Shown in pieces: positions 3,989-44,143 of a stretch of 45,781 bases of DNA. Position 1 is the first letter of the stretch, and every line of letters begins with the position of its first letter. The stretch comes from Pedobacter ureilyticus (GTDB lineage: Bacteria > Bacteroidota > Bacteroidia > Sphingobacteriales > Sphingobacteriaceae): the NCBI RefSeq assembly GCF_005925345.1, contig NZ_SSHJ01000028.1:1-45781 (forward strand). The letters are read 5' to 3'. Below the pieces are notes generated by a model. The model was not told where the DNA came from. It ran no database searches and saw only the letters and a list, made by a program, of their open reading frames with translations. Made by a program: the position numbers and the translations under genes.

Positions 3989-6900
3989 ATGTACTTAATT
4001 TTCGATACAGAAACCACAGGTTTACCACGTAATTTCAATGCTCCAATTACCGATACCGATAATTGGCCACGTTGTATCCAAATCGCTTGGCAGCTGCATG
4101 ACGAGTTAGGTAATATGATAGAACATCAGGATTATTTGGTTAAGCCAGAAGGGTTTAATATTCCTTATGACGCAGAGCGTATACACGGTATTTCTACCGA
4201 TTTGGCAGAAGAGCAAGGCGTTGATTTAGCAGAAGTATTAGAGAAATTTAACGAAGTACTAGGTAAGGCCAAATTTGTTGTAGGTCAAAACATCAAGTTT
4301 GATATCAATATTATGGGTTGCGAGCTGTACCGTTTTGGTGTAGAAAGCAAATTGGCCGATATGCCGGTATTAGATACTTGTACAGAAATTACAGCCGAGC
4401 TATTAAAAATTCCGGGAGGTAGAGGTGGTAAATTTAAGTTGCCTACTCTAACAGAGCTGCACCAATATTTATTTGGTACCCCTTTTGGCGAAGCGCACAA
4501 CGCAACTGCAGATGTGGAAGCAACTACGCGTTGTTTTTTGGAGTTGATTAAAAAACAGGTTTTTACCAAAGAAGAACTTCAGGTTGATACCGATTACTTT
4601 TTACGTTTCAAAGAAGCCAATCCCTTTGTCATCGAATCTGTGGGCTTGCAGCATATCAACCTAAAAGCTGCTTCAGATGAAATTAGAAAGAGAAAAGATG
4701 TAGATACCGGAGGTATTTCTAAACACACACTAACACAAAATAAAGCAGCCTTAGCAGATGCGACTTTTGTACATTTGCATAACCATACGCAGTTTTCTGT
4801 TCTTCAGAGTACCATCAGCGTGCCAGCCTTAGTAAAAGCAGCGGCCGAAAAAGGGATGCCTGCAGTTGCCATTACCGATCATGCCAATATGATGGGGGCT
4901 TTCCACTTTGTGAATAATGTACTTAACCATAACAAGAGCGCAGAAGCAAAAAATGCGGAATCCATAGAAAAAGGCGAAAAGCCAACAGCAACCGTTATCA
5001 AACCTATTATTGGTGTTGAATTTTTTGTTTGTGATGACCATACCGACAAAACTAGAAAAGATAGCGGCTATCAAGTGGTGTTCTTAGCCAAAAACAAACA
5101 AGGTTATCATAATTTGGCCAAAATGTCTTCCATAGCTTATACCAAAGGGTTTTACTATGTGCCGAGGATAGACAGGACAGTGGTAGAGCAATACAAAGAA
5201 AACCTGATTGTATTAACCGGTAACATGTATGGAGAGATTCCTAGCAAGATATTGAATATTGGCGAGAAGCAGGCAGAAGAAGCTTTACTTTGGTGGAAGG
5301 AACAATTTGGCGATGATTTTTATATAGAGCTGATGCGCCATGGTCAGGAAAATGAAGACCGCGTAAACGAAGTTTTAGTGAAAATGGCAGCAGAGCACCA
5401 AGTCAAAATGGTGGCTACCAACAATACCTATTACGTAAATAGAAAAGATGCGCATGCCCACGATATTCTGTTGTGCGTTAAAGATGCCGAGAAGTTAGCA
5501 ACGCCAATTGGTCGTGGTAGAGGTTTTAGGTATGGCATGCCTAACCACGAATACTATTTTAAGTCCGCAGACGAGATGAAAACTCTGTTTGCCGATATTC
5601 CAGACGCTATTATCAATATCCAAGAGGTAATAGATAAAATAGAAAGCTATAAATTAGCAAGGGAGGTATTGTTACCTAAATTCGATATTCCAGAAGAATT
5701 TTTGGTAGCCGAGGACGAAGAAGATGGCGGTAAACGTGGAGAGAATAAATTTCTGCGTCATTTAACTTATGTAGGAGCAGAGAAGCGCTACGGAGAATTA
5801 ACGCCAGACATTACCGAACGTTTAGATTTTGAGCTGCAAACCATCGAAAAAACAGGATACCCTGGTTACTTTCTGATTGTACAAGATTTTATTGCCGAAG
5901 CTCGTCGTAGAGATGTGTCTGTAGGCCCGGGTCGTGGATCTGCTGCGGGTTCTGCTGTGGCTTATTGTTTGGGTATTACCAACATCGACCCTATTAAGTA
6001 CGATCTCCTTTTTGAGCGTTTCCTTAATCCAGACCGTGTTTCTATGCCCGATATTGACATCGACTTTGATGACGAGGGCCGTGGCCGTGTAATGGATTAC
6101 GTAATCAATAAATACGGTTCTAGTCAGGTAGCGCAAATCATTACCTATGGCACTATGGCAGCAAAATCTTCTATCAGAGATACCGCTAGGGTACTAGATT
6201 TGCCACTTTTTGAGGCCGATAAGGTGGCCAAGCTGGTACCTAATATGAAGTTGGCTAAAATCTTTAATTTGGAAGACAAGGCTTTAAAAGAAGCTTTGCG
6301 TCCCGATGAATTTGAGAACGTAAATTTGCTTAAAGGCTTAGCGGGAGGGAAAGATTTAGCAGCCGAAACCTTACAGCAAGCCATTGTATTAGAAGGTTCG
6401 GTACGTAATACGGGTATCCACGCTTGTGGTGTAATCATTACGCCTTCTGATATTACCAATTTTGTGCCTGTAGCTACTGCCAAAGACAGTGATTTATACG
6501 TAACTCAGTTTGATAACTCGGTAGTAGAAAGTGCTGGTTTGCTAAAAATGGACTTTTTAGGGTTAAAAACTTTAACCTTAATTAAGGATACCGTAAAGCT
6601 CGTTAAAAAACGTCATGGTATAGACCTAGATCCAGATAATTTCCCTATCGATGACGTAGCTACTTATGAGCTTTTCCAGCGTGGCGAAACCATTGGTATT
6701 TTTCAGTATGAAAGTCCGGGCATGCAAAAATACATGAAGGAGCTAAAACCTACAGTATTTGGAGATTTAATTGCCATGAACGCACTTTACCGCCCAGGGC
6801 CAATGGAGTATATCCCAAGTTTTGTTCGCCGTAAACACGGAACGGAACCTATTACCTACGATTTAGATGCTTGTGAAGAGTACCTAAAAGAAACCTATGG

Positions 6901-41122: not shown

Positions 41123-41304
41123 TGTGATATGTGAATATTTGCCATCGTTCTGCCTATTTACACGCCGATGGTTTAAGTTTTACAGTACAAAGATTAGGAA
41201 AGTGACAGCGGTATAAAATCCGAAAATTGCTGAATTTGATTTCAATTTCTAAGCATGCCTCCGCTAATTTTTCAAAATAAAATTTCGGATTGTAAAAACT
41301 TTAA

Positions 41305-41336
41305 TATATTTGTCTACTAAATCTATAGATTTAGTA
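41305..41336 (+). promoter_or_regulatory. Promoter and 22-bp palindromic operator candidate
   Basis: TATATTTG (41305-41312) matches the TAnnTTTG box. Two bases on begins a perfect 22-bp palindrome, 41315-41336, centred on TCTATAGA with outer half-sites TACTAAA and TTTAGTA. It covers the expected transcription start, the usual place for a repressor site. The half-site loosely recalls Rrf2/CymR-type boxes, but I cannot confirm that. Confidence 0.55.
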
Positions 41337-41358
41337 TAATTTAAACTTTTTGATGTTG

Positions 41359-41386
41359 AAACCACCCTGATGCATAAGGGTAGTTT
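41359..41386 (+). other. Leader hairpin with alternative pairing partner
   Basis: AAACCACCCT (41359-41368) and AGGGTAGTTT (41377-41386) pair in 9 of 10 positions, with one C/A mismatch (41363/41382) and an 8-nt loop. The 3' arm GGTAGTTT (41379-41386) can instead pair without mismatch to AAACTACC (41454-41461), inside the upstream ORF just after the Cys codons. This is the layout of mutually exclusive RNA structures. Confidence 0.5.
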
Positions 41387-41413
41387 GATCACCATTTAAA
41401 CAAAATCCAAAAG

Positions 41414-41509
41414 ATGAAAAAGATCCTAAATCCCATGTGTTGCTGTACAGTTAAAACTACCATTAATCATTTGAAAATGTTCAAAATACCTATACAGCAA
41501 ACACTTTAA
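41414..41509 (+). CDS. 31-codon leader ORF with three consecutive Cys codons
   Basis: ATG 41414 to TAA 41507-41509; the predicted peptide starts MKKILNPMCCCTVKTT and continues with a basic/aliphatic tail ending IPIQQTL. Cys codons TGT TGC TGT are at 41438-41446. They fall in the 5' arm of a hairpin: GTGTTGCTGTA (41437-41447) pairs with TACAGCAA-A-CAC (41493-41504, single bulged A), 11 bp. The stop is 15 nt before the receptor ATG. It is too short for a standard gene finder. The likely role is regulatory: ribosome pausing at scarce Cys-tRNA would keep the 5' arm open. A functional protein is less likely. Confidence 0.5.
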   Translation: MKKILNPMCCCTVKTTINHLKMFKIPIQQTL

Positions 41510-41524
41510 TAGCCAATTACAACA

Positions 41525-44143
41525 ATGAAAATTAAACTATACCAAATTAGAAATAACTTTTACCTAACTACACTAACAATTTTATCGCTAATCCTTTTTG
41601 TTGGATTTGCTCATGCTCAAACTCCTTTTAGCGGAGTGGTCAAAAAAGGAGATGGTTCTCCAGTTCCTCACGCTACCGTTAAAATAAGAGGCACAAATAT
41701 TTCTACGAGTGCAAATGAAAATGGTCAATTCCGCTTCATCTCTGTTCCAGAAGTTCCATTTTACATTCAAGTAAGTTCAGTAGGTTTTAAACCGCAAGAT
41801 TTCCAAATTTTAACCATTTCTGCTGCCCCTTTGGAAGTGGTTTTGTTAGAAGCTTCTCAGTTAGACCAAATTGTAGTAACCTCCCGCCGTCGTTCTGAAG
41901 TATTGCAAGAAGTACCTATTCCAATTACAGTTATCGGCGGAAAGGCAGCTGAAAATGCAGGTGCTTTCAACGTTAATCGTTTAAAAGAATTGGTACCTTC
42001 AGTTCAATTGTATGCTTCCAATGCAAGAAATACTACATTAAATATACGTGGTTTAGGCTCTACCTTTGGCTTAACTAACGATGGGATTGATCCAGGTGTT
42101 GGTTTTTACGTAGATGGTGTTTACCACGCTCGTCCAGCAGCAACTTCAACAGATTTTATCGATATCGAACAAATTGAAGTAATTAGAGGGCCACAAGGAA
42201 CTTTGTTCGGTAAAAATACCACGGCTGGTGCGTTTAACATTACCACCAAAAAACCAAGTTTTGTACCAAGCGGAAAAGCGGAGCTCAGCTTCGGTAATTA
42301 TAATTTTATCCAGGCTAAGGCTACCGTTACTGGTGGCGTAGCCAAAAATTTGGCGGCAAAAATATCAGTTTCTGGTACACAACGCGATGGTACCATTTGG
42401 AACGTTTTAGAAGAACGTAAATACAGTGGGCAAAACAATTTAGGCGCAAAGGGCCAATTACTTTTTAAGCCTAACGAGAAATTAGAATTGATATTAAGTG
42501 GCGATGTAAGCATTCAACATCCGGCAGGTTACCCATTAGTGGTTGCTGGCGTAACTGCTACAGAAAGAAGCGCTTTTAGGCAGTATGCCAAAATTGTAGA
42601 AGATCTAGGCTATGTACAACCAAAAATCAATCCTTTTGCTAGAGAAATATATACCAATACACCTTGGCGACACAATCAATCTATTGGAGGTATTTCCTTA
42701 AACGCTGATTATAAAGTTGGGAACGGAAAATTAACTTCCACTACTGCTTGGCGGTTCTGGAATTGGGACCCAACCAACGATAGAGATTTCACCGAGTTTT
42801 CTGCATTGACTAAATCGCAAGGTAACACTCGCCACGATCAATATTCACAAGAATTTAGATATGCTGGCGATCTTACGGAAAAGTTGAGCGGAGTGGTTGG
42901 TGTGTTCGTACTTGGTCAGAATTTACAAGGCTTAGGGCAAACCGAAGAAGTAGGTAAAGATCAATGGCGCTTTGTGCAAACCAGTGCCACAGGAGAGCAG
43001 GCTTTATACAACACCAATCGCGATTTATTAACAGGCTATGGCATCACTACCAATTCAACCATTAAATCGTTAAGTGCGGCTATTTTTGCACAGGTAGATT
43101 GGGAGGTGCTAGATAAATTACACGTATTGCCAGGCATTAGGTTTACTTACGATAAAAAAGAGGTAGATTATGAGAGAAGAACTTACGGCGGCTTACAAAC
43201 TTCGGATGCTGCTTTATTAAGACTTAAAGCGGCTGTGTATAGCAATCAGCAATTTAATACCAGTACCAACAATAATAACTTGTCTGGAAACTTAACCGTT
43301 TCTTATCGACCAAGCGATAAACTGAACGCATTTGCTACTTATTCTACCGCCTATAAGCCAGTTGGTGTTAATGTAGGCGGTTTGCCAACTACATCAACTG
43401 GTGCAGCCGATTTATCTTTAGCCGTAGTAAAACCAGAGTACGTACAACATTATGAACTAGGTTTGAAAACAAAGCCAACTTTAGGTGCAATTTTGAACAT
43501 TACTGCATTTAATACCGACATTAAAGATTACCAAACCAATGTGCAATCGCCACAATTGGGGGTAAATAGAGGTTATTTAGCCAATGCCGAAAAGGTAAGG
43601 GTAAGAGGCTTAGAGGTTGACGGAAGTTACCAATTACAAAGGTTTTTAACCTTAAATGCAGCAGTTTCTTACTTAGATGGCAAGTACGTGAAGTTTACCA
43701 ACGCACCACTGCCTTTAGAAGAAACTGGACACGTAGAAACCGTAAATGGCGTGCCAAATACGCAAGTAGCATTTAAGGATGCTTCTGGAGGTCGTTTGCC
43801 TGGTATTTCAAAGTGGAATACTTCTGCTGGAGCAGAGTTGAGCACTACTGGCAATTTGATAGATAAAGAAGGTCGTTCTTTTATTGCTGGAGATGTTTCT
43901 TATCGCTCTTCGTATTCTTCAAATCCAACACCTTCTAAAGTTTTAGTAGTCGATGGCTACACTTTGGTCAATGCCAGAGTTGGATTTAGATCAGAGAAAT
44001 TCTCGATTTTTGCTTGGAGCAGAAACCTCGGTGGAACTAACTATTTCGAGCAATTACAGGCAGCAGCAGGCAACTCTGGTTTGTATGCTGGCGTATTGGG
44101 AGATCCAAGAACTTACGGTGCTACTTTAAGATTTGGATTTTAA
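41525..44143 (+). CDS. TonB-dependent outer-membrane receptor
   Basis: 872 aa. Signal peptide 1-32 (ending HAQ), carboxypeptidase-regulatory-like beta-sandwich 33-110 (GSPVPHATVKIRG, FRFISVPEVPFYIQVSS), TonB box-like DQIVVTS (114-120), plug about 128-245 (PITVIGGKAAENAGAFNV, GPQGTLFGKNTTAGAFNIT), and a 22-strand beta-barrel ending in GATLRFGF with the C-terminal aromatic residue. It imports a scarce substrate using TonB energy. It is a single-gene receptor: no SusD partner is adjacent, and the FGKNTTAGA plug resembles the proteobacterial siderophore/cobalamin/other type more than SusC. The substrate is unknown. The Cys-codon leader suggests a sulfur-containing compound, by inference. Confidence 0.93.
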   Translation: MKIKLYQIRNNFYLTTLTILSLILFVGFAHAQTPFSGVVKKGDGSPVPHATVKIRGTNISTSANENGQFRFISVPEVPFYIQVSSVGFKPQDFQILTISAAPLEVVLLEASQLDQIVVTSRRRSEVLQEVPIPITVIGGKAAENAGAFNVNRLKELVPSVQLYASNARNTTLNIRGLGSTFGLTNDGIDPGVGFYVDGVYHARPAATSTDFIDIEQIEVIRGPQGTLFGKNTTAGAFNITTKKPSFVPSGKAELSFGNYNFIQAKATVTGGVAKNLAAKISVSGTQRDGTIWNVLEERKYSGQNNLGAKGQLLFKPNEKLELILSGDVSIQHPAGYPLVVAGVTATERSAFRQYAKIVEDLGYVQPKINPFAREIYTNTPWRHNQSIGGISLNADYKVGNGKLTSTTAWRFWNWDPTNDRDFTEFSALTKSQGNTRHDQYSQEFRYAGDLTEKLSGVVGVFVLGQNLQGLGQTEEVGKDQWRFVQTSATGEQALYNTNRDLLTGYGITTNSTIKSLSAAIFAQVDWEVLDKLHVLPGIRFTYDKKEVDYERRTYGGLQTSDAALLRLKAAVYSNQQFNTSTNNNNLSGNLTVSYRPSDKLNAFATYSTAYKPVGVNVGGLPTTSTGAADLSLAVVKPEYVQHYELGLKTKPTLGAILNITAFNTDIKDYQTNVQSPQLGVNRGYLANAEKVRVRGLEVDGSYQLQRFLTLNAAVSYLDGKYVKFTNAPLPLEETGHVETVNGVPNTQVAFKDASGGRLPGISKWNTSAGAELSTTGNLIDKEGRSFIAGDVSYRSSYSSNPTPSKVLVVDGYTLVNARVGFRSEKFSIFAWSRNLGGTNYFEQLQAAAGNSGLYAGVLGDPRTYGATLRFGF

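Follow-up and report, generated by a model that had tools for sequence, protein, structure and literature searches.

A cysteine-codon leader before a TonB-dependent receptor gene of Pedobacter ureilyticus, a candidate cysteine-responsive switch

Does the short open reading frame (ORF) that precedes a TonB-dependent receptor gene in Pedobacter ureilyticus, and that carries three consecutive cysteine codons, control the receptor in response to cysteine? The window, i.e. the whole stretch of 45,781 nucleotides that was analysed, is contig C21 of a genome of 4,975,174 bases in 52 contigs. A sequence-only reading of this DNA had described the ORF as a leader peptide with cysteine as the sensed amino acid, set among competing RNA hairpins, and the positions that it gave for the ORF (41414-41509), the Cys codons and the segments GTGTTGCTGTA, TACAGCAAACAC, GGTAGTTT and AAACTACC were all exact on re-reading. 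The cysteine/sulfur reading of the leader is well supported by comparison with relatives, and the leader most likely switches the receptor on under cysteine shortage. The elements concerned are as follows.

41414 to 41509, + strand: leader ORF, MKKILNPMCCCTVKTTINHLKMFKIPIQQTL followed by TAA, 31 codons; Cys-run leaders stand at the same place in orthologues.
41438 to 41446, + strand: Cys codons TGT TGC TGT, the proposed sensor, unchanged across all 9 window-clade species.
41437 to 41447, + strand: 5' arm of the Cys-codon hairpin, GTGTTGCTGTA, the proposed masking strand; duplex of -14.0 kcal/mol.
41493 to 41504, + strand: 3' arm, TACAGCAAACAC, 21 to 32 nt upstream of the receptor ATG.
41525 to 44143, + strand: TonB-dependent receptor of 872 aa with a CarboxypepD_reg-like domain.

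The leader stop codon and the receptor ATG at 41525 are separated by 15 nt. The receptor reached the cut-off of no NCBIfam equivalog, and four distant solved receptor structures give no hint of its substrate; siderophore receptors are found among its distant relatives, and its closest named relatives, among the best 80 of 452 loci, are Pedobacter species. One relative has its receptor gene split across two matches (G009:C1:2736787-2739251, L039).

Judged from the window sequence alone, the leader elements are weak and do not exceed chance. Two 8-bp inverted repeats lie within 41359-41524, where at least one such repeat arises in 262 of 1000 dinucleotide shuffles and at least two in 95 of 1000, and the fold of 41340-41530 has a z-score of -1.62, a fold as good being reached by 8 of 200 shuffles. 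A simple scan of the + strand of 41200-41700 found no intrinsic terminator before the receptor, nor was one seen by eye in the 89-base gap, confirming the earlier statement that no U-tailed terminator is present. Rfam gave no match in the window at gathering score, what appeared when the limit was relaxed to E 10 was low-scoring and unrelated, and eight relatives yielded a single unrelated match; by this search the leader belongs to no known riboswitch or RNA family. In L054, positions 4058-4253, about 2.7 kb before the receptor, match the Flavo-1 RNA (RF01705). Within the genome itself the pattern ATGTGYTGYTGY, used to look for further MCCC leaders, occurs at 13 sites, and the window site is the sole leader close before a gene; the two best non-self matches to the leader DNA, when read, were A-rich start regions of unrelated genes.

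The receptor is present in 30 of 59 genomes of one genus (own genome included), in 217 of 399 genomes of the family, in 26 of 395 of the phylum under a strict cut-off and, for the genus to which G453 belongs (taken here to be Flavobacterium), in 48 of 150. ATG ORFs of fewer than 70 codons within 450 nt upstream of the receptor were scanned for leaders, the searched loci being the best-scoring ones (best 80 of 452; best 30 of 48 for the Flavobacterium genus), with the omission of L075, L179 and L199, whose last 120 nt equal those of another row, and of one Pedobacter-group locus with less than 300 nt upstream. Leaders with three consecutive cysteines (CCC) precede the receptor at 46 of 74 Pedobacter-group loci, 12 of 37 other family loci and 2 of 28 phylum loci, compared with 4 of 740, 1 of 370 and 0 of 280 shuffles. 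With CC or CxC admitted, the counts are 54/74, 17/37 and 19/28 for the loci, and 68/740, 38/370 and 34/280 for their shuffles. As a further control, 633 other genes at these Pedobacter loci were scanned; CCC stands before 4 of them and CC before 44. By this comparison the Cys leader is far beyond chance, and it is on the orthologues, not on the window sequence, that we judge it to be real; cysteine as the sensing codon of a leader peptide, as first proposed, thus gains support. A CC leader is absent from 20 of the 74 Pedobacter-group loci, some of which retain isolated Cys residues and others nothing; the promoter motif is kept among those listed.

The leader peptides differ almost everywhere except in their cysteines. 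The window clade has MK..LNPMCCC..YLKIPIQQT, clade A2 MKTNQKTRSYCCCSHSKTVIAYFRTSH and clade B MKTDLHFIKMKRKT..LLDCCCC, while in other genera the Cys run, uninterrupted up to seven residues, stands immediately before the stop. In Flavobacterium a Cys-bearing leader was found at all 27 of 27 newly fetched loci (from the best 30 of 48), most of them ending in MCMC or MCMCW. From leader stop to receptor start there are 14-20 nt in the window clade and distances of about -34, -48 and -150 to -300 elsewhere, with 150-300 untranslated nt between leader and receptor in some clades. A conserved short ORF rich in the presumed sensed codon therefore stands before the gene, as in leader-peptide attenuators.

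The Cys-codon run of the window pairs with positions -33 to -19 from the receptor ATG at -14.0 kcal/mol, against a mean of -8.85 kcal/mol with shuffled downstream sequence (p 0.025). By the same measure, such pairing of the Cys run just upstream of the receptor start reached p <0.05 for 6 of the 9 leaders of the window clade. The same holds for 10 of the 12 from Flavobacterium, where the sequence is quite different and the partner lies at about -26 to -10; overall the count is just 19 of 89. Within the alignments, 89.5% of cells are paired in the window clade (9 sequences) and 93.8% in Flavobacterium (36 distinct sequences), compared with 19-54% and 18-55%, respectively, in slid controls, and the Flavobacterium values are freely reached by column shuffles. 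Two-sided changes number one in the nine window-clade sequences and none in the 36 from Flavobacterium, so that covariation at the receptor leader is nearly absent. Of the orthologue comparison that the sequence-only reading had put forward as its check, the conservation of the Cys codons was thus widely borne out; the missing CC at 20 Pedobacter-group loci and the weak strict covariation go the other way. The better sign of constraint, in these alignments, is the frozen third base of the Cys codons: all TGT TGC TGT codons are kept in all nine species, whereas the third base is kept in 17 of 136 comparable two-fold receptor codons. Furthermore, a base change in the 3' arm turns a codon into a stop in L059 and changes Gln to Arg in L058, with a G-U pair kept in each case. 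For the leaders of clades A2 and B, no structure of use came out of RNAalifold.

The alternative structures proposed at first did not survive the comparison. The upstream hairpin is:

41359 to 41386, + strand: hairpin with the arm GGTAGTTT at 41379-41386, folding at -9.9 kcal/mol; not conserved.

When the remaining eight window-clade loci (L053-L060) were read by eye, a hairpin was seen at this place in L058 only, and L058 is without a counterpart of the partner at 41454-41461 (AAACTACC). Competition between hairpins was therefore not borne out, the pairing of 41359-41386 with 41454-41461 was rejected as a switch, and the upstream hairpin was left out of the conserved device. On the aligned sequences, the Cys codons (41437-41447) with 41493-41504 are the only RNA element conserved in the window clade. 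L058 is recorded as 'Flavobacteriaceae' and groups with the window's Pedobacter clade; its title may be wrong.

We computed the cost of opening the region from -22 to +12 around the receptor ATG in the free RNA and with a ribosome at the first Cys codon, with one fixed setting throughout for the ribosome footprint (+12) and the start window. The loci folded were 9 of the window clade (set A1), 19 A2, 12 B and 16 others, the last three sets being hand-picked, and 40 of 41 Flavobacterium-genus loci, L218 being omitted since the pattern found no leader in it. For the window the cost falls from 4.2 to 1.6 kcal/mol; much of this drop is already present with the ribosome at codons 5-6, from where the edge of its footprint extends to the arm. 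The window-clade mean falls from 3.46 to 1.66, with a drop of at least 1 kcal/mol in 6 of 9 and a smaller one or none in 3 of 9, the first-Cys value exceeding the free value in L055. In Flavobacterium the mean falls from 9.52 to 1.68 kcal/mol, with a drop of this size (1 kcal/mol or more) in 40 of 40, and in L214 the floor is reached already at the Met codon immediately before the first Cys. The A2 leaders (3.16 to 2.79), B leaders (3.86 to 3.96) and others (4.66 to 4.58) show little change on average; the cost falls by 1 kcal/mol or more in 2 of 19, 2 of 12 and 4 of 16, respectively, and rises in 2 of the B leaders and 1 of the others. In this model, unmasking of the start by a waiting ribosome is credible in the window clade and has a strong case in Flavobacterium; it fails outside these two groups, where the Cys leader, by the comparison above, is still real.

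Two further elements lie upstream of the leader.

41305 to 41312, + strand: predicted promoter -7 element, TATATTTG, also before the leader in the listed orthologues of the genus.
41315 to 41338, + strand: palindrome, TACTAAATCTATAGATTTAGTATA, at the expected transcription start; a candidate operator.

TATATTTG lies about 100 nt upstream of the leader ATG and fits TAnnTTTG, which we take to be the Bacteroidota -7 consensus; the reading by eye of the genus orthologue upstream regions covered loci other than L083-L102. The perfect form TAAATCTATAGATTTA occurs once in the genome, at the receptor palindrome. A relaxed form occurs at five places: in the promoters of the receptor and of sulfite reductase, 332 nt upstream of a further gene, and twice within genes. 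Its 2 forward and 5 reverse matches compare with 4 and 2 in the reversed control, which matches as often, so that the count proves nothing and only the placement at two sulfur-linked promoters is telling. As a regulon marker the strict palindrome was rejected, as the fifteen adjoining loci that were read showed no sulfur regulon. An Rrf2 gene adjoins the sulfite-reductase operon and is also found near the receptor in L130 and L132; a protein of this kind may bind at the palindrome.

At some loci the genes beside the receptor point in the same direction as the codons. Sulfate-assimilation-like genes, named after reference proteins that we identified by reading their sequences, lie near the receptor at 17 of 119 loci, and none was found in the flanks of the other 102 or seen in the window; the PAPS-reductase family was confirmed by Pfam for the own genome. 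In L127, L131 and L132 the receptor lies amid genes for sulfite reductase, SUMT and a CysG-like protein, joined by CysH, CysD and CysN in L132 and by CysE and CysM in L127. It adjoins CysN, CysD and CysH in L167 and L191, and a CysG-like gene in L174, L175, L180, L183 and L193 (in L175 also sulfite reductase); in L053-L059 SUMT lies downstream of it. L127 is titled a 'Chitinophaga pinensis' MAG, and its cys operon closely resembles one in a Flavobacteriia MAG; this title, too, may be wrong.

In the window's own genome the corresponding operon, on contig C52, comprises Rrf2, sulfite reductase, SUMT, CysG-like, CysH, CysD and CysN, and has a leader of its own.

G000:C52:66366-68800 (L257, L258): sulfite-reductase Cys-Cys leader and intrinsic terminator.

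Sulfite reductase is preceded by the leader MKSIIIFFLMLQSTMKYCCKTM and then by a hairpin with a T run, which the simple scanner missed, probably because the stem extended into the T run. Of 30 Pedobacter sulfite-reductase loci, a CC or CxC leader is present at 19, a terminator (a hairpin at least as stable as -9 kcal/mol ahead of a T run) at 22, and both at 18. Alignment of 21 of the 22 terminator-bearing loci (L285 omitted) gave a stem in which 210 of 210 cells are paired; two-sided cells number 8, at 3 pairs, as many as 0 of 500 shuffles reached, and RNAalifold returned the same stem; the rows were chosen for having a hairpin, so the two-sided changes are the informative part. In truncated-RNA folding, uptake of the terminator 5' arm averaged 0.67 with the ribosome at Cys and 0.43 with it at the stop, and was higher at Cys in 19 of 21 leaders and lower in none. 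The best upstream partner starts at most 2 nt from the end of the leader stop codon in 15 of 21, so a finishing ribosome would be expected to cover it. With the codons and the terminator of a transcription attenuator, and an antiterminator seen by folding only, this leader resembles a classical cysteine attenuator, predicted to be on when cysteine is low. Together with the gene neighbourhood it supports the role in sulfur supply first proposed for the receptor, which may import a sulfur compound.

We think it rather probable that the leader at 41414-41509 senses cysteine and places the receptor in the sulfur-assimilation regulon, its Cys codons masking the receptor start and a waiting ribosome unmasking it. 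When cysteine is plentiful, ribosomes would pass the Cys codons and leave, 41437-41447 would pair with 41493-41504, and this hairpin, aided by ribosomes ending at 41509, would hamper loading at the receptor start at 41525. When Cys-tRNA is short, a ribosome waiting on TGT TGC TGT would keep that strand open, freeing the start and allowing receptor synthesis. Transcription is probably also acted on, by a repressor at the palindrome 41315-41338.

Such a device has partial counterparts. Transcription attenuators of the trp/his type have a leader peptide with a run of the sensed codon; both leaders described here share the short ORF with its codon run before the genes, and the sulfite-reductase operon has in addition an antiterminator-like segment and a terminator. 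Unlike these, the receptor leader of the window has no terminator and is therefore no attenuator of this type, the proposed step being translation. In mycobacteria, cysteine-responsive polycysteine uORFs are leaderless short ORFs; they likewise tie a Cys run in a small upstream ORF to sulfur genes with a translational read-out. They belong to another phylum, however, and the ORF here, with its predicted promoter element upstream, would not be leaderless but begin some 95 nt behind the expected transcription start; it also ends before the receptor start, and the pairing with the start region involves the Cys codons themselves. In ermC-type translational attenuation a ribosome held on the leader by a drug disrupts a hairpin, so that the next start becomes accessible, as is proposed here, whereas at this locus the ribosome would be held by Cys-tRNA shortage and the sensing codons would be the masking strand. 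The CruR-type copper leader of Bordetella, which has a DUF2946 domain, is also a Cys-bearing leader before a TonB-dependent receptor. Here the context is one of sulfur and DUF2946 is absent, Pfam having matched no family in six leaders up to E 1, so that the leader is not of the CruR type.

Other explanations weigh differently against these results. It is possible, if rather unlikely, that the leader senses cysteine while the controlled step is Rho-dependent termination or mRNA stability and pairing at the start is secondary. This would cover A2 and B as well, and would account for Cys runs that persist where the start region is not masked or where 150-300 untranslated nt part leader and receptor; the third bases frozen in the window clade, however, and the strong masking seen for Flavobacterium point to pairing in these two groups. 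Sensing of a metal or the redox state through binding by the nascent or free peptide, as in copper-responsive leaders, seems improbable to us. A Cys-rich peptide before a TonB-dependent receptor with siderophore receptors among its distant relatives would suit it, but uninterrupted runs of up to seven Cys immediately before the stop, the sulfur operons and the terminator attenuator at sulfite reductase fit tRNA supply, and the leaders searched match nothing in Pfam or NCBIfam.

The sign of the response could also be the opposite, with completion of the leader aiding reinitiation at the receptor, so that cysteine shortage lowers it. The 14-20 nt spacing in the window clade favours such coupling, yet this spacing is not kept elsewhere and the sulfite-reductase leader has the other predicted sign; we consider it very improbable. 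Hardly tenable at all is a chance ORF with chance hairpins in an AT-rich intergenic region: the single-sequence statistics given above are as weak as it would expect, but the CCC counts against shuffles and other genes and the frozen third bases refute it for the Cys leader, and it stands for the alternative pairing of the upstream hairpin.

Beyond control of this receptor by masking and unmasking, the data suggest a cysteine-attenuation regulon in Bacteroidota, a wider proposal that we regard as evenly poised. Leaders with Cys runs, sharing an operator-like motif in the window's genus, would govern sulfate assimilation by transcription attenuation and the widespread TonB-dependent receptor by another step. 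The sensor codons would be the start-masking strand in the window clade and Flavobacterium, the Cys run would have been kept while the surrounding RNA was rebuilt several times, and the receptor would be the outer-membrane gate for a sulfur source. To our knowledge, there are few descriptions of leader-peptide attenuation in Bacteroidota, and none for cysteine. If the proposal is true, sensor and switch are one element in these two groups, a compact arrangement in which the masking strand is made of the sensing codons, and the orthologues provide a natural set of variants, constant in the codon run and changing in the RNA around it. For the receptor group, present in over half of the family genomes, a shortage of cysteine or sulfur would be the regulatory cue, and this in turn would define a testable class of substrates.

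Several details were noted around the leaders of relatives. In the Flavobacterium-genus loci L207-L256 the stretch CTACTAATYACATATA between leader and receptor is almost invariant, and Met and Cys alternate before the stop, so that methionine supply might also be sensed. Class B leaders such as L066, L081, L084 and L104 are followed, before the receptor, by a hairpin GGATG..CATCC and then by the well-kept ATGGCTTTGCTTTGCAAT, in which the changes look, by eye, partly synonymous (MALLCN), perhaps marking a second tiny ORF. In L101, about 1.8 kb before the receptor, a leader-like ORF ending in six Cys precedes a 268-aa protein, which we take to be a PhyH-type dioxygenase look-alike.
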